From a virus: 59,424 bases of DNA. The stretch spans positions 1-59,424 of IMG/VR virus record IMGVR_UViG_3300042879_001983. One strand, 5' to 3'. This document shows positions 3,791 through 56,367 of this stretch, piece by piece (positions within the stretch are counted from its first letter, which is position 1; every line of letters starts with the position of its first letter). The translations under genes and the position numbers were made by a program. The notes beneath the pieces are model-generated. The model made no database searches and was not told the DNA's origin. It saw nothing but the letters and a program-made list of their open reading frames with translations.

Positions 3791-3942
3791 TTGTTTTAAA
3801 AGGTAGTAAGACCATCGGGGAAATGGTGGAGTTACTATGTTCCCCGCACCCTCAGCGGGGATATGAGAGATACTTTACTTCTCGTGATCTCGGTTTGAGA
3901 AGTCAACATTAAGAATCTGTAACGGTTCTTAACTTGTTGATG

Positions 3943-28327: not shown

Positions 28328-28476
28328 GGGTAACTCAGGCTCGCCACCAATTCTTTGACTGGAAATTGGAAACCAGGCGGGAGAGAGTCCCATCCGCACC
28401 ACTTGCCTTTTAATGGGAAGGCAAGAAACCAAAAGGGGTCGTTTTGACTCCACCACCTAGTTTGACTGAACTAGGA
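28328..28476 (-). ncRNA. candidate structured leader or small RNA ahead of the glycan operon
   Basis: No gene fits this stretch, but consecutive stems do: CCTAGTT/AACTAGG (28456-28475), CTTGCCTT/AAGGCAAG (28412-28435), a bulged GCGG/CCGC stem (about 28377-28397) and CCAATT/AATTGG (28357-28379), then the terminator. GAGTC and GACTC in separate loops could pair as a pseudoknot. The first stem includes the stop of the upstream gene. It could be a 3' UTR, a stand-alone RNA, or an attenuating leader like the wcaG motif reported ahead of cyanobacterial and cyanophage exopolysaccharide genes. Confidence 0.5.
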
Positions 28477-32959: not shown

Positions 32960-33031
32960 CTCCACAACCTGGGATCGAACCAGGGACCAGTCGATTAACA
33001 GTCGAATGCTCTACCGCTGAGCTATTGTGGA
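32960..33031 (-). tRNA. tRNA-Asn(GTT)
   Basis: A 72-nt cloverleaf: acceptor TCCACAA/TTGTGGA, anticodon stem TCGA/TCGA with loop CTGTTAA (anticodon GTT) and T-loop TTCGATC; discriminator G. Its first 10 bases are also the last codons and stop of the HNH endonuclease gene. Confidence 0.95.
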
Positions 33032-33375
33032 ATAAGTATTTCGTGATGTATTTCTCTATGACAATTGGCACAGAGTAAATCACATTTATCAAGTTCTGCA
33101 GTTAACTTATCTTTTGAAACTAATCGCATTTTTTGCCAAACAAATTCTTTTTCTTTGGGATTTCTATGATGAAATTCTAAAGCACCATAGTATTTGGAAT
33201 AACCACATACTTGACACTTTCCACCTTTGTATTGAATAGCATCAAGTTTTCGTTGTTTCCAACGATCTTGAAATATTCTATTCATACAAGTCTTGCAATA
33301 TGATTGAAGTCGTTTGCCCTTTTTATAAGCATTGTCTTCGTTTAATTCAATTTTGCAAGTAGAACAGGTTGACAT
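33022..33375 (-). CDS. HNH homing endonuclease embedded among tRNA genes
   Basis: The 117 residues have two zinc units: STCSTCKIELN with YCKTCMNR, then CQVCGY with the HNH core LEFHHRNPKEKEF and LLCANCHREIHH. The family makes site-specific breaks and mobilises its own gene. The coding sequence ends inside the 5' end of tRNA-Asn: its last three codons and the TAG stop use tRNA bases. The start is preceded by a late promoter lying inside a hairpin. The target could be a neighbouring tRNA. Confidence 0.85.
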   Translation of the reverse strand: MSTCSTCKIELNEDNAYKKGKRLQSYCKTCMNRIFQDRWKQRKLDAIQYKGGKCQVCGYSKYYGALEFHHRNPKEKEFVWQKMRLVSKDKLTAELDKCDLLCANCHREIHHEILIPQ

Positions 33376-33387
33376 TTTATTTTATAT

Positions 33388-33414
33388 TTGGATAATATTA
33401 TTTATACTATCCAA
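33388..33414 (-). promoter_or_regulatory. late promoter in a hairpin loop ahead of the HNH gene
   Basis: TTGGATA and TATCCAA pair (7 bp); the 13-base loop holds a consensus TATAAATA (33406-33399). The upstream arm begins right at the tRNA-Arg 3' end. A transcript started at this promoter would lack the 5' arm of the stem. Confidence 0.68.
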
Positions 33415-34958: not shown

Positions 34959-35135
34959 TCAGTCCTCTGGTTCCAAAGACAAGATGTTGATCTCGTCACT
35001 TTCAGGTTCAATCCATTCACGAAACTCATCGTAAATTGCTTTAGCATTAGCACTATTAATAGGTTTAATCAAACTAATTGTTTCAATAGACCAATCACGG
35101 ATATCTGAAACAATATCCTCAGTCGTTACAGTCAT
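34959..35135 (-). CDS. 58-residue hypothetical protein
   Basis: An acidic helical protein: MTVTTEDIVSDIRDWSIETI, then NAKAIYDEFREWIEPESDEI. I chose ATG 35135; the longer open frame is only the shadow of the upstream endonuclease gene. It overlaps that gene by 17 bases. The function is unknown. Confidence 0.62.
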   Translation of the reverse strand: MTVTTEDIVSDIRDWSIETISLIKPINSANAKAIYDEFREWIEPESDEINILSLEPED

Positions 35136-35562
35136 AATAATCTTTTCGGAAGTACCTGTTAAGGATGTTGCTATTGTAGTACCTTGGTCTTCCGTCGTCA
35201 AGAGATTCTGTAAGGACGTTGTGGGCAAAGAGTTGTCTTGTTTCTTCAAAGTTAGTTTTGCCCTTTGTTTTATGTAATGATAAAATAGTGCGCGTAAAAT
35301 TCTCCCTACCATATTTTTTCACATCTTCTTTGAGTTCTGGACAAGATCCATAATAGCATTTCCAGTCAGACTCTGCTTTAACCTTTCTAGATTTTCCCTT
35401 CGGTGTTCGGAAACTCCAGAAATATTTTCTACCAATGTAATCACGCCCAGTTTGATTGCAGTGAATGTGATAAACAAAACCAAAATAATCTTGAATATCA
35501 TCTGAATTAAAATATTTTCCCTTATACGTCCAAGGATTTTCATAGTCAATATCTATACTCAT
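35119..35562 (-). CDS. SegE-like GIY-YIG endonuclease
   Basis: FGFVYHIHCNQTGRDYIGRK is a GIY-YIG variant (VYHI...YIG) with the catalytic Arg soon after (RKYFW). SDWKCYYGSCPELKEDVKKY and NFTRTILSLHKTKGKTNFEE follow the layout of T4 SegE-type proteins. At 147 residues it is near the family length. I chose ATG 35562; the preceding 13 codons are hydrophobic and lie in the next gene. Whether it is a mobile or a housekeeping phage enzyme is undecided. Confidence 0.75.
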   Translation of the reverse strand: MSIDIDYENPWTYKGKYFNSDDIQDYFGFVYHIHCNQTGRDYIGRKYFWSFRTPKGKSRKVKAESDWKCYYGSCPELKEDVKKYGRENFTRTILSLHKTKGKTNFEETRQLFAHNVLTESLDDGRPRYYNSNILNRYFRKDYYDCND

Positions 35563-35707
35563 CAAGAATATCAAGAACTTCGTTGAGATATTTATGAGCA
35601 AGTCCTTTCATATCCATTTCTGGACGAATGTGCTCTATATTAAGTTGATGTTTCAATCTTAAAATGCGAACCTTAAGTTCTTCCTTTGTTATTTGATTTT
35701 TAGCCAT
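35546..35707 (-). CDS. 53-residue hypothetical protein
   Basis: A charged helical protein: MAKNQITKEELKVRILRLKH, then IRPEMDMKGLAHKYLNEVLD. It overlaps the start of the SegE-like gene by 17 bases, which supports co-translation. A terminator for the upstream gene lies just before it. The function is unknown. Confidence 0.6.
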   Translation of the reverse strand: MAKNQITKEELKVRILRLKHQLNIEHIRPEMDMKGLAHKYLNEVLDILDEYRY

Positions 35708-35741: not shown

Positions 35742-35897
35742 CTACTCTTCGGTATTTTTACTTATCCAAATATAAGAATAGTCATGATCTCCGAACAAAT
35801 AATCATCATATTCTGCTGCTTCTTTAAAAGCATTTAAAAGTTCTTGCTCACACCATTCATCATAATTGGAATCCTGCGAAAGTATTTTTGGTTTCAT
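35742..35897 (-). CDS. 51-residue acidic protein
   Basis: MKPKILSQDSNYDEWCEQEL and NAFKEAAEYDDYLFGDHDYS form a strongly acidic, Tyr-rich chain. It ends 8 bases before a strong terminator. Very acidic small phage proteins sometimes mimic DNA or inhibit host enzymes; there is no direct evidence here. Confidence 0.55.
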   Translation of the reverse strand: MKPKILSQDSNYDEWCEQELLNAFKEAAEYDDYLFGDHDYSYIWISKNTEE

Positions 35898-36475: not shown

Positions 36476-36994
36476 TTAGTTATTTATTATAGTCCAACCT
36501 TTTGTGTTCTTGCTTTTCTTTCCCAAAACCGCATCATAAGTTATTCCTATTTCTTTACAGAACTTTTTAACTCCACCTTCTACAATATGTTTTTTACCAT
36601 CTGGAGAAATGAAGATATATTTTTTTGCTTTTGGATTGTTTTTACCAGCAACTTTTAATGATGTTTTCTTTTTACTTTCTTCACTATGTTTTTTCCCACT
36701 AAATCCTCTGGTTTTTTGTCCTCCTGGTTTTCCTTCTCCACCAAGATTTTGGTTTAATAAAACTCCACCATCACACTCTCTTTTCCAAAGTGCTATATGT
36801 TTTATTTCAAGTTCTATTGCTTCTTCTTTAGTTAATCCAGATTTTACAATCCACCTTCTTTCTCTTGATGGTAATAAGTTTGCTCCATTACTCCTTAAAT
36901 GTTTTGCGTGTATTCTTCTTGGTTTTCCATAACCAACATAAAAGGGAGAACTAAAGTCCTCCCTCAAGTAATAGTAAAGAATATAGTTATTCAT
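36476..36994 (-). CDS. GIY-YIG homing endonuclease downstream of nrdB
   Basis: YILYYYLREDFSSPFYVGYG is a GIY-YIG-type start with the catalytic Arg in KPRRIHAKH. GFSGKKHSEESKKKTSLKV is a NUMOD3 DNA-binding motif, and the end (YIFISPDGKKHIVEGGVKKF, then KSKNTKGWTIINN) resembles the IENR/NUMOD-type module. This is the modular layout of freestanding homing enzymes such as the T4 Seg/Mob proteins. It begins directly after an inverted repeat that fills the gap to the nrdB stop codon. Confidence 0.9.
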   Translation of the reverse strand: MNNYILYYYLREDFSSPFYVGYGKPRRIHAKHLRSNGANLLPSRERRWIVKSGLTKEEAIELEIKHIALWKRECDGGVLLNQNLGGEGKPGGQKTRGFSGKKHSEESKKKTSLKVAGKNNPKAKKYIFISPDGKKHIVEGGVKKFCKEIGITYDAVLGKKSKNTKGWTIINN

Positions 36995-37050
36995 TTTAAG
37001 ACTGAAGTGGAGTTATATTTATTTATACAACATTCAACTTCAGTCTTAAA
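36995..37050 (-). promoter_or_regulatory. 14-bp inverted repeat enclosing a late promoter
   Basis: TTTAAGACTGAAGT and its exact complement ACTTCAGTCTTAAA (36995-37008 and 37037-37050) fill the gap between the nrdB stop and the endonuclease ATG. The 28-base loop contains TATAAATA (37027-37020). Readthrough RNA would fold and hide the start; RNA begun at the late promoter would not contain the first arm. Confidence 0.85.
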
Positions 37051-38181
37051 TCATAGTTTAAACCCACTAAATGTGTCTTTTTTTACATCTTGTTTGATTC
37101 CACCAATCACATAACTTTCGATTTCCGTTTCCTGGGGAGCAACCTGGAGACCTTTAGAGGAGATCCAATGCTGAGTCCAAGGAAGGGGATTATTGTTTGC
37201 TGAAATATCATATTGAGGTTTAAGTCCAATTGATTTTAATCTACGATTAGCAATCCATTCAACATATTGTTGTAAAAGTTTATCATTTAATCCAATCATG
37301 CTTCCATCTTTGAACAGATAATCTGCCCATTTCTTTTCTTCATTCACAGCACGATCAAACATTGCATAAACCCACTCTTCCTCCTCTTTTGCAATTTGCT
37401 TCATTTCTGGATCATCACCATCTCTCCACTTATTCAGAATATTCTGAGTAATTGCTAGGTGTTGATTTTCGTCTCTTGCGATGAGAGAGATGATCTTAGC
37501 TGATCCTTCCATAAGCTTAAGTTCACCGAAGGCGAAAGAACAAGCAAAACTAACGTAGAACCGAATACCTTCAAGAATGTTAACATTAGCGACTGCTCTG
37601 TAGAGTTTTCTTTTAACATCGTTGAGTGTTTCCTTTGCGTTTGTGACTCCTTCAAGTCTAAACATCCAATCTTTGGATGTACTATAAGATTGAGCGGATT
37701 GAATAAAGTCATCATATGATTCTGTAACGCTCCTAGAACGCTCTAGAATACGCTTATCATGGATGATAGTATCAAACACCTCAGATGGATCTGAATAAAC
37801 ATTTTTAATAATGTATGTGTATGAGCGTGAGTGAATCATTTCCATGAAACCCCACACTTCCATACATGCCTCCAGTTCTGGAAGGGAACAATAGGGAATA
37901 AACGCCATACCAGGACCACGACCTTGAACAGAGTCGAGCATAATCTGGTATTTTAAATTAGAAGTATAAATGTGTTTTTGTTCTGGGCGAAGAGTGTGAT
38001 AGTCTCCTCGGTCTTTTTGAAGAGATACCTCTTCAGGTCTCCAAAAATATCCGAGTTGTTGAGTTGTTAATTTATCAAAGATAGGATATTTGTACGAGTC
38101 ATATCTTTGAACTCCGAGCGGTTTTCCAAAAAACATTGGTTGCTTTTTGGTGTCCACTTTCTCAGTATTAAATACGGTCAT
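37051..38181 (-). CDS. nrdB: ribonucleotide reductase small subunit (class Ia)
   Basis: NrdB makes the tyrosyl radical that NrdA uses to reduce ribonucleotides. EVWGFMEMIHSRSYTYII contains Glu and His iron ligands, LIARDENQHLAITQ a second Glu/His set, and the C-terminus ends FSGFKL, where NrdA docks. I chose ATG 38181 (376 residues, MTVFNTEKVDTKKQ), the usual cyanophage start; a GTG farther upstream would overlap nrdA. It follows nrdA by 37 bases. Confidence 0.96.
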   Translation of the reverse strand: MTVFNTEKVDTKKQPMFFGKPLGVQRYDSYKYPIFDKLTTQQLGYFWRPEEVSLQKDRGDYHTLRPEQKHIYTSNLKYQIMLDSVQGRGPGMAFIPYCSLPELEACMEVWGFMEMIHSRSYTYIIKNVYSDPSEVFDTIIHDKRILERSRSVTESYDDFIQSAQSYSTSKDWMFRLEGVTNAKETLNDVKRKLYRAVANVNILEGIRFYVSFACSFAFGELKLMEGSAKIISLIARDENQHLAITQNILNKWRDGDDPEMKQIAKEEEEWVYAMFDRAVNEEKKWADYLFKDGSMIGLNDKLLQQYVEWIANRRLKSIGLKPQYDISANNNPLPWTQHWISSKGLQVAPQETEIESYVIGGIKQDVKKDTFSGFKL

Positions 38182-38218
38182 CCCTTTAATTTGGGTCTGA
38201 TCTTCAGTTGAAGAAACT

Positions 38219-40516
38219 TTAAACTGCACAGGATTCACACTCGCCCTCCTCTATTGAACTTAATTCACTTAGTAAATCTTGAAGATTGGGTTTCTCTTCT
38301 ACCACTTCATCAGTCTTAATATCGTAAGTATTTTGATAATAAGAAGTTTTCCACCCATACTTGTATGTAGTCAAGAAGTCATTCGCCATCACGCTAACAG
38401 GAACTTCATTATTTTCATAATTCTCTGGATTATAGGACCAGTTTCCAGAAATCGCTTGATCGAAGAATTTTTGCATAACAGCAACAATATTGATGTACCC
38501 GCGATTGCTAGGCATATCCCACAGAAGCGTATAATTGTTCTTAAGTGTTTGATACTGGGGGACAATCTGCTTAAGAGGTCCTTTCTTTGATTTCTTAATG
38601 GACAAGAATCCACGAGGCGGCTCGATTCCATTGGTTGCGTTTGACACAACGGAACTGCTCTCCGATGGCATCTGTGCGGACAGTGTTGAGTGCCTGAGAC
38701 CGTGAGCCAAGATGGATGCTCTAAGTGATTCCCAATCATGTTGTAGTGGAGTTGCTGAAATTTCGTCTACATCTTTTTTGTATGTATCAACGGGAAGAAT
38801 TCCGTCCGCATACTTAGTACGACCAAAGTAGTCACAATAACCCTTCTCTTTAGCAAGTTGATTAGATGCCTTCAAAAGATAAAACTGGAAAGATTCAGAA
38901 AGACCATGAACCGCATCCCACGCTTCTTGAGAGTCATACTTAAATCCAAGTTTCGCCAAATAGTGTGCTAATCCAATATACCCAATTCCAAGAGATCTCC
39001 TTGCCTTGGTAGCAAGTTCTGCTGCCGCAACAGGATACTTTTGATAATCAATTAGTTCTTCCAATCCACGAACAGAAAGATCACAAAGTTCTTCAAGTTC
39101 TTCATCAGACTTGACTTTACCAACATTAATTGCGGAGAGGATGCAAAGTGCAATTTCTCCATTTTCGTCATCAATATGTTGAATAGGATAAGTTGGTAGA
39201 GTAATTTCCTGACATAAGTTACTCATTTCAATTTTGTCTTTGAAAGATGAGTGAGAATTGCAGTGATCAATATTCATGATATAGATTCGACCAGTCTCAG
39301 CCCTCTCTTTTAAAAGACTGAGAATGAGTTCTTGAGCGCCAATAGTTTTTCTTGGAATAGACTCATTTCGTTCTGCAGCCAAATAAAGATCGTCAAATCC
39401 ATCAAGCCCAAAATTAGTACTAAGCTCAGGAACGTCGTGGGGACTAAAGAGTGAAATTTCTTCGTTGCGGATGAATCGTTCATAGAAGAGTTTGGAGATT
39501 TGGATACTGTAGTCTAACTTACGAACACGATTATCTTCAGTTCCCTTATTATTTTTCAATACTAAGATATCTTCTATTTCTTGGTGCCAGATAGGAAAGT
39601 GGACTGTAGCCGAACCACCTCGGATCCCGTTTTGAGTGCAGCATCGTACAGTTGCTTCAAACTTTTTAAGGAAGGGGACAACGCCTGTGTGTTGTACCTC
39701 TCCACCTCTGATTTTGCTGTTGATACCACGGATGCGACCTGCGTTGATACCGATGCCCGCCCTTTGTGCAACATATCTGCCGATAGCCATATCAGAACTA
39801 AAGATGCTATCGAGGGTGTCATCAACATCAACAAGAACACAGCTAGCAAATTGTCGAAGTGGAGTTCGCACTCCCGCCATGATAGGTGTGGGAATGTTGA
39901 TTTTGTGTTTGGAGATTGCGTCATAATACTTTTTGACGTATGAAAGTCTAGTTTCTTTGGGGTATTCCGCAAAAATAGTTAATGCAATCATCATGTACAT
40001 GAACTGAGGAGTTTCATATACTTTTCCAGAACTTCTATCTTGAACAAGATACTTATCAACTACTTGTCGAAGTCCAGCATAGGTAAACAGAAAATCACGA
40101 TCATGATCAATAAATGTATTTACCTTATCAATTTCTTCTTTTGAATATTTGTTAAAAATATCATTATCATATATTTCTCTTTGAACACAATTAATGATGT
40201 GTTCTTCCAGGTGAGGAAGTTCGATCATTTTTCCAAATAAACTTTTACGAAGAGCAAATAACAAGAGTCTTGCTGCAACATATTGATAATTTGGATGGTC
40301 CAAGTCAATTAAATCTGAAGCCGAACGAATCAGAATTTCCTGAATCTCTGCTGTGGTAATTCCATCATAAAATTGAATGCCCGAAGTCATCTCAACTTGA
40401 CTCGCAGAGACGCCTGCAAGACCCCTACATGCCTCCTCAACCATCAGATGCATCTTATCCAGGTCAAGGGACTCAATTCGCCCATCACGCTTTTTTACTT
40501 TGGTTCCGTTGCTCAT
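38219..40516 (-). CDS. nrdA: ribonucleotide reductase large subunit (class Ia)
   Basis: The 765 residues begin with an ATP-cone regulatory domain (VKKRDGRIESLDLDKMHLM). The catalytic barrel contains FASCVLVDVDDTLDSIFSSD, where the redox Cys lies, and MPSESSSVVSNATNGIEPPR, the conserved active-site region. The C-terminal CESCAV gives the Cys pair that thioredoxin or glutaredoxin reduces. I chose ATG 40516 with GGAAG upstream. The start overlaps the gp61 stop by 4 bases, so nucleotide supply and primase are co-translated. Confidence 0.97.
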   Translation of the reverse strand: MSNGTKVKKRDGRIESLDLDKMHLMVEEACRGLAGVSASQVEMTSGIQFYDGITTAEIQEILIRSASDLIDLDHPNYQYVAARLLLFALRKSLFGKMIELPHLEEHIINCVQREIYDNDIFNKYSKEEIDKVNTFIDHDRDFLFTYAGLRQVVDKYLVQDRSSGKVYETPQFMYMMIALTIFAEYPKETRLSYVKKYYDAISKHKINIPTPIMAGVRTPLRQFASCVLVDVDDTLDSIFSSDMAIGRYVAQRAGIGINAGRIRGINSKIRGGEVQHTGVVPFLKKFEATVRCCTQNGIRGGSATVHFPIWHQEIEDILVLKNNKGTEDNRVRKLDYSIQISKLFYERFIRNEEISLFSPHDVPELSTNFGLDGFDDLYLAAERNESIPRKTIGAQELILSLLKERAETGRIYIMNIDHCNSHSSFKDKIEMSNLCQEITLPTYPIQHIDDENGEIALCILSAINVGKVKSDEELEELCDLSVRGLEELIDYQKYPVAAAELATKARRSLGIGYIGLAHYLAKLGFKYDSQEAWDAVHGLSESFQFYLLKASNQLAKEKGYCDYFGRTKYADGILPVDTYKKDVDEISATPLQHDWESLRASILAHGLRHSTLSAQMPSESSSVVSNATNGIEPPRGFLSIKKSKKGPLKQIVPQYQTLKNNYTLLWDMPSNRGYINIVAVMQKFFDQAISGNWSYNPENYENNEVPVSVMANDFLTTYKYGWKTSYYQNTYDIKTDEVVEEKPNLQDLLSELSSIEEGECESCAV

Positions 40517-53872: not shown

Positions 53873-56367
53873 TAGGCAAAAAATAATTCAAGGTTTACAG
53901 TTTTTTCTACATTCCACCCAATAATATCAAGAATTGACTTAAGTGGGTCAAGGAAACTCTTTTCAAATTGTAGTTCATAGTCGATGTATTTGTCAAGACC
54001 GAGTTCCTTGGGAAAGTCTTGAATAAATGAAATTACATTTTCCTGAATAATATTTGGTTTTTTTAGAAACAGGTATTTAACTTTTTCACCATTATTGATA
54101 AGAGAATACTTGTGTGTAAGTTTTTTCTCTTTCACATGATGATTAAACAAAAGTGCTCCACGAACATGAATTGGAGTTTTGGGAGCATAAATGTTTGACG
54201 AAGATTGATATTTACGAATGTCTGAAGCAGTTCTAGGAAAAGCAATTTCTTCTGGGGGAAGAGATTTAAACTTGGTTCGGCATTGATCAATGAACTCAAT
54301 CACTTCATCTTCAGTTCCATTCATCATCAACTTAAGTCCATCCTTAATCATCTTACGGCAAGGAGCAGGAGTTGAAGATTTAATTGCTTCAATACCCATG
54401 ATCTTAAGTTTAGGTTCTTCATAACGAACACCTTCACTATCCCAAACGTTAAGAATATATCGCTTCTTTGCAGTCCAAATACCACGATCAGCAATATTCT
54501 CACGCTTCATCTGCATCTTCTGGTCATATGCATTCACATAGGTCGCCAGTTCTTGGTAGCAACCTTCAATATACTTTTCAAGTTCCACCGTACAGACCTT
54601 ATCAAGGAACGAAACAATGCTTTGAGAAGTTTTCTCTCTTCCTTTGAATACAGTTTCAACCAGAGGACCCATATTAAGATAAATGGAGTCAGTATCTGAA
54701 GCAATAACATAATCTTCACCATCCGTTTTAAGAATCTTATTCAGATAAGCATTCATCTTGTCTTCAATCCAACGAATCGAAACTTGACCAGACAAAGTGA
54801 TTGCTTCAGCATTTGCTAGTTTATAGTACCTGAAATACTGATTACCGATAGCACCATAAGCAGAGTTAAGTTGAATCTTCCTCGCCATTTGGATGTTATT
54901 GCATCTTGCAATCTCTTTAACCAATTGCTTGTCCTTAGTCTTTTCATATTCTTGCTTTGCCGCAAGCATTTTCTTTTTATAAATGGTGCGATCTTTATAG
55001 ATTTTCTCCATCAATTCTGGAAGGAATCCACGCACATCCTTGCGGAACATTGCTCCGTTAGCACATACAGCATAGTCTTTGTAGAGTTCAAAATTAATTT
55101 GTTGATTTAAAATTTTATCTACAGTTACAGTTGGATGCCTCTCTTCCAGAAGAGTTTCTGGCGAGATGTTATACTGCATGATTAAGTGCGGATATAGAGA
55201 GTTAAGGTCAAAAGATACAACCCAGTCATATTTTCCAGGAACAGGTTCCTTTACATAAGCACCAGCATATTTTTCATCTTTAGATGTCCTCTCCTTTGGC
55301 GGAATAACAATATCTCTTTTCTTGAGATAATTGTAGATAATATTATCCCACATGCGAACTTGGTAGAATACATCACCATAATTTACTTTAGCGTCATACG
55401 CCATAGTAATTGCAAGTTCGATCAATTTCATCTTGTCTTCCAAACGGTCAACAAGTTCTACGTCAACGATGTTGTACTCCACAAACTTCTGCCAGTTTTG
55501 AGTATAAAAATCTTTAAACGTATCAAACTCAGAGTGGTCAAGTTTTTTCTGACCTAACTCCACATTTGCAATATGATCAAGACGATATGATTCTTGGTTG
55601 GTGTATGTGAATTTCTTATAAAGATCGAGGTAGTCTAGTTGAGTAATTCCGCCAACGTCATAGACAATTTGCTTTCTACCATTCACAAAAATTTCATCTT
55701 GAGTAACCAAACCCCAAGGAGAAAATCTTTTCATTTGACGTTCTCCAAGAACTCTACTCAAACGCCCACAAATATAAGGAACGTCATACATTTGAATATT
55801 CCACCCAGTAATTACTTCTGGAATATTTGCATCCCAATAGTTAATAAAGTTACTCAAAAGTTGATGCTCAGTATTACACTGAATATACTTAACGTTTTTT
55901 TGCTTGTTTACAAATGGATGAATGCCCCAGGTTACAATTTCTTTGGTGGTATAGTCTTGGATTGTGATAGTGAGAATTTCTTCGCAGCAAGATTCTGTAT
56001 CTGGAAATCCTTGTTCTGCTGCCACCTCAATATCAATAGTAGTTAGTTTAATTTTTGAAATATCAAATTGAATTTCATCTTCTGGATATTTGTCTGAGAT
56101 ATACTGAGCAATGTACCTATCATTGCCGTAAATACGAAACCCATCTACATCCTCGTACTTTTTATAAAATTCTCTACAGTCTCTTACAAATCCTGGTTGA
56201 ATTGGTTCAACGTGCTCTCCATCAAGAGTTTTATATTTGGTTTTCTTTTTAGAAGGTACAAACAAAGTTGGAATGTACTCCTCTTTGAACATCACATGTT
56301 TTCCGTTATCAAATCCTCTAACAAGGAATTGATTACCGATCATTTGCACGTTAGTATAAAATCTCAT
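53872..56367 (-). CDS. 43: DNA polymerase, T4 gp43-like (family B)
   Basis: This replicative polymerase has 3'-5' proofreading. The exonuclease site is seen in KLTTIDIEVAAEQGFPD (DxE) and in the NIVDVELVDRLEDKM region; polymerase motif A is VSFDLNSLYPHLIMQYN, motif B KIQLNSAYGAIGNQYFRYY, and motif C YVIASDTDSIYLNMG with DTDS. At 831 residues it is a little shorter than T4 gp43. The C-terminal ELFFA end is a likely clamp-binding peptide. It overlaps neighbours on both sides. Confidence 0.98.
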   Translation of the reverse strand: MRFYTNVQMIGNQFLVRGFDNGKHVMFKEEYIPTLFVPSKKKTKYKTLDGEHVEPIQPGFVRDCREFYKKYEDVDGFRIYGNDRYIAQYISDKYPEDEIQFDISKIKLTTIDIEVAAEQGFPDTESCCEEILTITIQDYTTKEIVTWGIHPFVNKQKNVKYIQCNTEHQLLSNFINYWDANIPEVITGWNIQMYDVPYICGRLSRVLGERQMKRFSPWGLVTQDEIFVNGRKQIVYDVGGITQLDYLDLYKKFTYTNQESYRLDHIANVELGQKKLDHSEFDTFKDFYTQNWQKFVEYNIVDVELVDRLEDKMKLIELAITMAYDAKVNYGDVFYQVRMWDNIIYNYLKKRDIVIPPKERTSKDEKYAGAYVKEPVPGKYDWVVSFDLNSLYPHLIMQYNISPETLLEERHPTVTVDKILNQQINFELYKDYAVCANGAMFRKDVRGFLPELMEKIYKDRTIYKKKMLAAKQEYEKTKDKQLVKEIARCNNIQMARKIQLNSAYGAIGNQYFRYYKLANAEAITLSGQVSIRWIEDKMNAYLNKILKTDGEDYVIASDTDSIYLNMGPLVETVFKGREKTSQSIVSFLDKVCTVELEKYIEGCYQELATYVNAYDQKMQMKRENIADRGIWTAKKRYILNVWDSEGVRYEEPKLKIMGIEAIKSSTPAPCRKMIKDGLKLMMNGTEDEVIEFIDQCRTKFKSLPPEEIAFPRTASDIRKYQSSSNIYAPKTPIHVRGALLFNHHVKEKKLTHKYSLINNGEKVKYLFLKKPNIIQENVISFIQDFPKELGLDKYIDYELQFEKSFLDPLKSILDIIGWNVEKTVNLELFFA

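Follow-up and report, generated by a model that had tools for sequence, protein, structure and literature searches.

The window, by which we mean the whole stretch of DNA analyzed here, is a 59,424-base virus record with T4-type replication genes, and its nrdB is nearest to the nrdB of Synechococcus phages. PhotoRC-II and wcaG RNA motifs lie on the minus strand at 3827–3916 and 28333–28433, the first of which we take to be a cyanophage RNA motif. The second, wcaG, is described as a cyanophage RNA motif (PMC12197685). The locus of interest is on the same strand, where nrdA and nrdB stand upstream of an endonuclease ORF. The nrdB gene, for the ribonucleotide reductase small subunit (37051–38238, minus strand; Pfam Ribonuc_red_sm, 4e-57), ends in a TGA stop codon at 37053–37051, and the endonuclease gene (36476–36994, minus strand) encodes 172 amino acids with a GIY-YIG-like N-terminus and a NUMOD-like C-terminus.

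The endonuclease matches the PHROGs homing-endonuclease profile phrog_314 (1e-11). The residues of the GIY-YIG catalytic motif (Y, YxG, R, E, N) are all present, and Y7, Y19-x-G21, R27, E63 and N81 are invariant across 15–17 relatives (alignments A2 and A3). The Pfam match to NUMOD3 is weak and below the cut-off, as is an NCBIfam match to group I intron endonucleases; a predicted structure of middling quality (pLDDT 66) has only a weak best match in the PDB, to I-HmuI (E 0.03). Judged from its sequence, the product is a freestanding GIY-YIG-like endonuclease with a putative homing role; the GIY-YIG assignment, which the original prediction put too firmly, rests on the motif residues. Codons 10–19 contain a terminator-like hairpin (36938–36965, minus strand; GAGGGAGGAC TTTA GTTCTCCCTT TTAT), made up of 36965–36942 plus a tail. 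Most of the 20 distinct variants compared retain this hairpin, and the window's version of it exceeds synonymous recodings in strength (P about 0.001). Weak terminators inside the coding start are also carried by T4 mobE and segF (PMC2988022). Further along, at 35119–35601 (minus strand), is a SegE-type GIY-YIG gene (Pfam SegE_GIY-YIG, 3e-53); a similar gene is found shortly behind nrdB in phage S-SCSM1.

The gap between nrdB and the endonuclease gene is 56 nt long and, as originally predicted, consists of one inverted repeat, in which two 14-nt arms match perfectly and the loop contains a late-promoter box. Read 5' to 3' on the minus strand, it runs TTTAAGACTGAAGT - TGAATGTTG - TATAAATA - AATATAACTCC - ACTTCAGTCTTAAA, followed by ATG. 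Arm 1 (37037–37050) abuts the nrdB stop codon and would be found in read-through RNA only; the box in the loop occupies 37020–37027 and is overlapped by a second late-type match, AATAAATA (ATAAATA), at 37016–37023; the last base of arm 2 (36995–37008) is position -1 of the ATG. All 14 arm pairs are Watson-Crick, and beyond one mismatch the arms still pair inward (17-nt arms at 94% in a repeat search). With its flanks, the minus-strand gap folds at -35.3 kcal/mol (z -3.6), a value equaled in one of 200 shuffles. The stem is by far the longest among the 32 [AC]TAAATA boxes of the window, with a score of 14 against 9 for the next and at most 8 for the others. The ATAAATA motif itself occurs 20 times where 22.6 are expected, which is not above chance; all 20 matches lie on the minus strand, the main coding strand. 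NATAAATA is a documented late-promoter motif of cyanomyoviruses, in which gp55, gp33 and gp45 are present (PMC2984593). A Shine-Dalgarno sequence was looked for in the endonuclease leader and is absent, so that the stem buries the stretch from -14 to -1, adjoining the AUG, and not a classical ribosome-binding site; an SD-like motif was found in only 5 of the 20 window genes checked. A search with Rfam covariance models gave no match at 36995–37050.

Conservation of the hairpin and its link to the endonuclease

Relatives with the same layout, whose existence the original prediction had proposed to check, proved abundant. A scan of metagenomic viral contigs located the endonuclease at 80 loci, 78 of which have the order nrdB stop, arm, box, arm, ATG, with 35 distinct gap sequences. 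In the alignment of these 35, standard pairs make up 92.4% of the pair cells, and pairing falls to 48–58% when the partner is shifted by one column. Two-sided changes occur in 6 of the 14 pairs, against a shuffle mean of 2.3 and with six reached in 2 of 500 shuffles, although this covariation rests on few cells (12). Examples of compensatory change are GACCGAAC/GTTCGGTC in L071 and GAGACTG/CAGTCTC in L073. The loop box is TATAAATA in 33 of the 35 distinct relatives. By these sequence measures, the combination of hairpin and box is beyond chance.

Whether the hairpin belongs to nrdB or to the endonuclease was addressed with the 80 nrdB genes closest to that of the window. Among these, 77 have neither the endonuclease nor the full hairpin, and the full hairpin is present in all three that bear the endonuclease. 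The hairpin is therefore part of an inserted cassette, and a general feature of nrdB 3' ends is ruled out by the 77 relatives without it. It is accordingly very improbable that the structure serves as the 3' end of the nrdB mRNA, be it as an intrinsic terminator or as a stabilizing or processing stem. The position directly after the nrdB stop and the terminators found after many cyanophage nrdB genes would suit such a role, but the hairpin travels with the endonuclease and is missing behind endonuclease-less nrdB genes, and the symmetry that extends up to the ATG and the conserved promoter box in the loop would be left unexplained. An intrinsic terminator in particular was rejected: terminator calling returned none at 36995–37050, where arm 2 is followed by ATGAATAAC and no U tract.

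The presence of the endonuclease behind nrdB varies among phages, which is consistent with candidate homing. In one endonuclease-less relative, L243, the nrdB stop is followed directly by arm 1 plus one half of the loop and then by other sequence, probably the scar of a lost cassette. A small gene of the window at 35742–35897 (minus strand) begins with a displaced copy of an nrdB 3' end (ACCAAAAATACTTTCGCAGGATTCCAATTATGATGAATGG); in the endonuclease-less relatives compared (L226, L237 and L244), the ACCAAAAATACTTTCGCAGGATTCCAATTATGATGAATGG letters make up the end of nrdB itself, and the start of the small gene lies within nrdB. From this comparison, a new nrdB tail seems to have arrived with the cassette, the old one being displaced 1.1 kb downstream. 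A resemblance of the arms to nrdB, as expected of an operator related to the homing site, was checked by eye only and none was seen.

Breadth of the layout in cyanophages

The window holds a second, smaller late-promoter hairpin at 33388–33414 (minus strand), between a tRNA and an HNH endonuclease gene (33022–33375, minus strand; phrog_2255 HNH endonuclease, 8e-34). Its arms, TTGGATAGTA and TATTATCCAA, flank a TATAAATA box at 33406–33399; the hairpin is kept in five relatives (L303–L307), with a compensatory change in L307. Whole genomes were scanned for late boxes flanked by arms that form 10 or more net pairs. In T4 there were two hits against 1.5 expected, so the scan has no statistical power in that phage, but one of the two precedes gene e, for which this mechanism has been demonstrated (PMC3014915). 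In S-SRM01, ten boxes at nine loci were found against 2.3 expected, and all nine of these strong elements stand before endonuclease-like genes: seven of the downstream genes match endonuclease profiles (EndoVII/HNH or homing), the one at 77663 aligns with the endonuclease family of the window, and the one at 56059 was called endonuclease-like by motif only. S-SRM01 has thirteen endonuclease-like genes, four of them without a strong element. Three of the five hits in B23 precede endonucleases; MA01 gave no hit at the threshold and has a slightly weaker element at its endonuclease.

Across the fetched loci, a stem with a box was present in 92 of 119 distinct endonuclease leaders versus 17 of 762 other ORFs, and about 12 of those 17 start like endonucleases themselves. 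Judged from sequence, the layout precedes both GIY-YIG and HNH/EndoVII endonucleases of cyanophages. In L182 and L218, near-perfect palindromes surround TATAAATA before ORFs (MEREEKNRRERERYNAKIKD and MIRNAYKSTDAEFIQAVKSS) that are not obviously endonucleases. A chance repeat, or a functionless scar of insertion, is hardly credible as an explanation of the window element. Inverted repeats of 9–10 pairs near start codons are not rare, and about 10% of control ORFs reach a score of 9; against this stand the concentration of the layout before endonuclease genes and the compensatory changes conserved across the 35 gap sequences.

The same comparisons bear on a DNA operator, in which the endonuclease or another protein would bind the dyad that spans the late promoter and repress its own transcription. 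I-TevI provides the precedent, as it autorepresses by binding over its own late promoter (PMC2988022), and the arm core AAGACTGAA is fairly constant within the nrdB class. Against an operator, arm sequences are unrelated between loci while their complementarity is retained, and among the inner ten pairs G-U pairs and mismatches are equally frequent (6 each). A G-U pair keeps an RNA stem and breaks a DNA dyad. An operator is thus an unlikely reading of the palindrome, though such a role could coexist with that of the hairpin.

Proposed control of endonuclease expression

We consider it likely that the endonuclease gene belongs to a cassette with its own timing device, in which the hairpin would block translation early and the late promoter in the loop would permit it. 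The homing-endonuclease cassette would have inserted directly behind the nrdB stop codon and brought this device with it. Read-through RNA from nrdA-nrdB, presumably early or middle in timing, would contain both arms and fold, hiding the start region, and for this reason the endonuclease is proposed not to be made early. A phage late sigma factor of the gp55 type would then act on TATAAATA in the loop; RNA started there, at about 37014–37013 if the spacing is as in T4, would lack arm 1 and be translated. Expression may be limited further by the weak terminator-like hairpin near the start of the coding sequence. Under this scheme, the endonuclease is probably translated only late in infection.

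The anatomy of the element and its conservation are observed directly, as is the change in predicted accessibility: in folds of the 35 sequences at 25 C, the mean unpaired probability from -15 to +4 is 0.22 in the long RNA versus 0.53 in loop-started RNA, taken to begin six bases after the box. The use of the promoter, its timing and the effect on translation we infer. Several points count against the mechanism. There is no Shine-Dalgarno sequence available to hide; a ribosome ending nrdB translation would cover arm 1 and could momentarily open the hairpin; and S-SRM01 and RN05-S also have endonucleases of the same kind without the element. The interpretation in the original prediction is partly supported, namely in the layout, in its conservation with compensatory changes and in the predicted switch of start-site accessibility between long and short RNA.

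Control by a hairpin and a late promoter has precedents in I-TevI, I-TevII, I-TevIII, SegB and MobE (PMC2988022). For T4 gene e and I-TevI the mechanism is established, and among freestanding enzymes it has been either demonstrated or implicated in MobE and SegB (PMC2988022, PMC3014915). The comparison with I-TevI drawn originally was correct (PMC2988022). The accompanying idea of a common control reaching a freestanding enzyme fared unevenly: the layout is wider than was supposed, but such control was already known in T4 segB and Aeh1 mobE.

The likeness to I-TevI, I-TevII and I-TevIII lies in a hairpin that hides the start region in read-through RNA, a late RNA without the 5' arm, and a homing endonuclease as the product. 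Those three are intron-encoded, whereas the window gene is freestanding, and the window hairpin occupies the entire gap from stop codon to AUG. The inverted repeat in the window leader is predicted to fold in read-through RNA, and a late promoter that would leave the late RNA without the 5' arm is indicated by sequence; the T4 introns sequester a Shine-Dalgarno about 8 nt before the AUG, which the window leader lacks, and the start region next to the AUG is paired instead. The window element is therefore classed as a variant that works alike and not as an identical member. T4 SegB and MobE of Aeromonas phage Aeh1 share the freestanding state and the hairpin-plus-late-promoter control. MobE is also linked to ribonucleotide reductase genes, and T4 mobE shares the weak terminator within the coding start; MobE differs in being an HNH enzyme in or by nrdA, and SegB in lying among tRNAs. 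T4 gene e (lysozyme), found by the scan used here, resembles the window in its late boxes in the loop and an arm 2 abutting the ATG, but is a lysis gene, not mobile, with a strong Shine-Dalgarno in arm 2. The control principle is thus already known, and what is new in the window copy is that it is a cyanophage variant without a Shine-Dalgarno.

Two-promoter elements and predicted small RNAs

Most elements outside the nrdB class have two additional features, a further late-type box ahead of arm 1 and a loop that includes a terminator. Among the 107 elements collected, 63 have a terminator inside the loop, and 61 of the 63 have a TAAATA box whose end lies 6–12 nt before arm 1; 38 of the 44 terminator-less elements have no such box within 40 nt. 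The two-promoter, terminator-containing elements occur ahead of many endonuclease genes in L142–L221 and in S-SRM01 (e.g. L403, L401 and L410). Should both boxes act as late promoters, a small RNA is predicted from the first and the endonuclease mRNA from the second. The predicted small RNA is 49–62 nt long (median 57; 60 distinct) and consists of a small hairpin and the terminator. The small local hairpin rests on single-sequence folds, since it was missed by alignment-based folding, owing to the variable loop, and a re-dealing test was weak (50 seen against a mean of 42 and a maximum of 50 in 200).

The loop of the predicted small RNA has its complement in the endonuclease mRNA leader. Cognate duplexes have a mean of -20.9 kcal/mol versus a median of -12.3 for non-cognate leaders, and the cognate leader is the best partner for 40 of 61 predicted small RNAs and, within S-SRM01, for six of six. 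An Rfam search of ten related loci gave no match, and no papers describing the predicted small RNAs or the spread across nuclease families were found in a literature search that most subscription journals lay outside.

The window element, with no upstream box and no loop terminator, represents the simple form. Pairing of its arm 1 with the endonuclease mRNA leader in trans, or in the form of a separate small RNA, is improbable. The upstream boxes and loop terminators of related elements elsewhere would favor this, but both features are missing from the window's class, so that arm 1 could reach the leader only within nrdB RNA. We tentatively suggest, at somewhat less than even confidence, that a portable leader module is common to freestanding cyanophage endonucleases of unrelated families, that its full form makes an antisense RNA of about 57 nt, equipped with a late promoter of its own, a recognition hairpin and a terminator and copy-specific like orthogonal RNA antitoxins, and that in the simple form the arm would be supplied in cis by read-through RNA.

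Phage antisense RNAs are known: Sar of P22, 68/69 nt long, pairs with the ant mRNA (PMC12197685, PMC2984593). The likeness of Sar, and of CfrI from cyanophage S-PM2, is to the two-promoter elements only and consists in complementarity between a phage RNA and a message. A further link is that of CfrI to a homing-endonuclease gene (PMC12197685, PMC2984593). CfrI is about 225 nt long and antisense over psbA and the endonuclease gene, whereas the predicted small RNAs, of 49–62 nt, are placed upstream on the same strand and recur within one phage with different specificities. Judged by the literature covered, neither the breadth across nuclease families nor the set of predicted small RNAs seems to have been described before.

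Work on T4 had revealed late-promoter hairpins at a few endonucleases; in environmental cyanophages the layout precedes many, from several families. Because the arms differ between them and yet remain complementary, the question of why selfish endonucleases are held until late becomes testable on natural sequence sets. That nine of nine strong elements in S-SRM01 stand before endonuclease-like genes makes the module usable for finding unannotated homing endonucleases. Should the two-promoter form give rise to the predicted small RNAs, mobile genes would be using orthogonal antisense RNAs in a new way.
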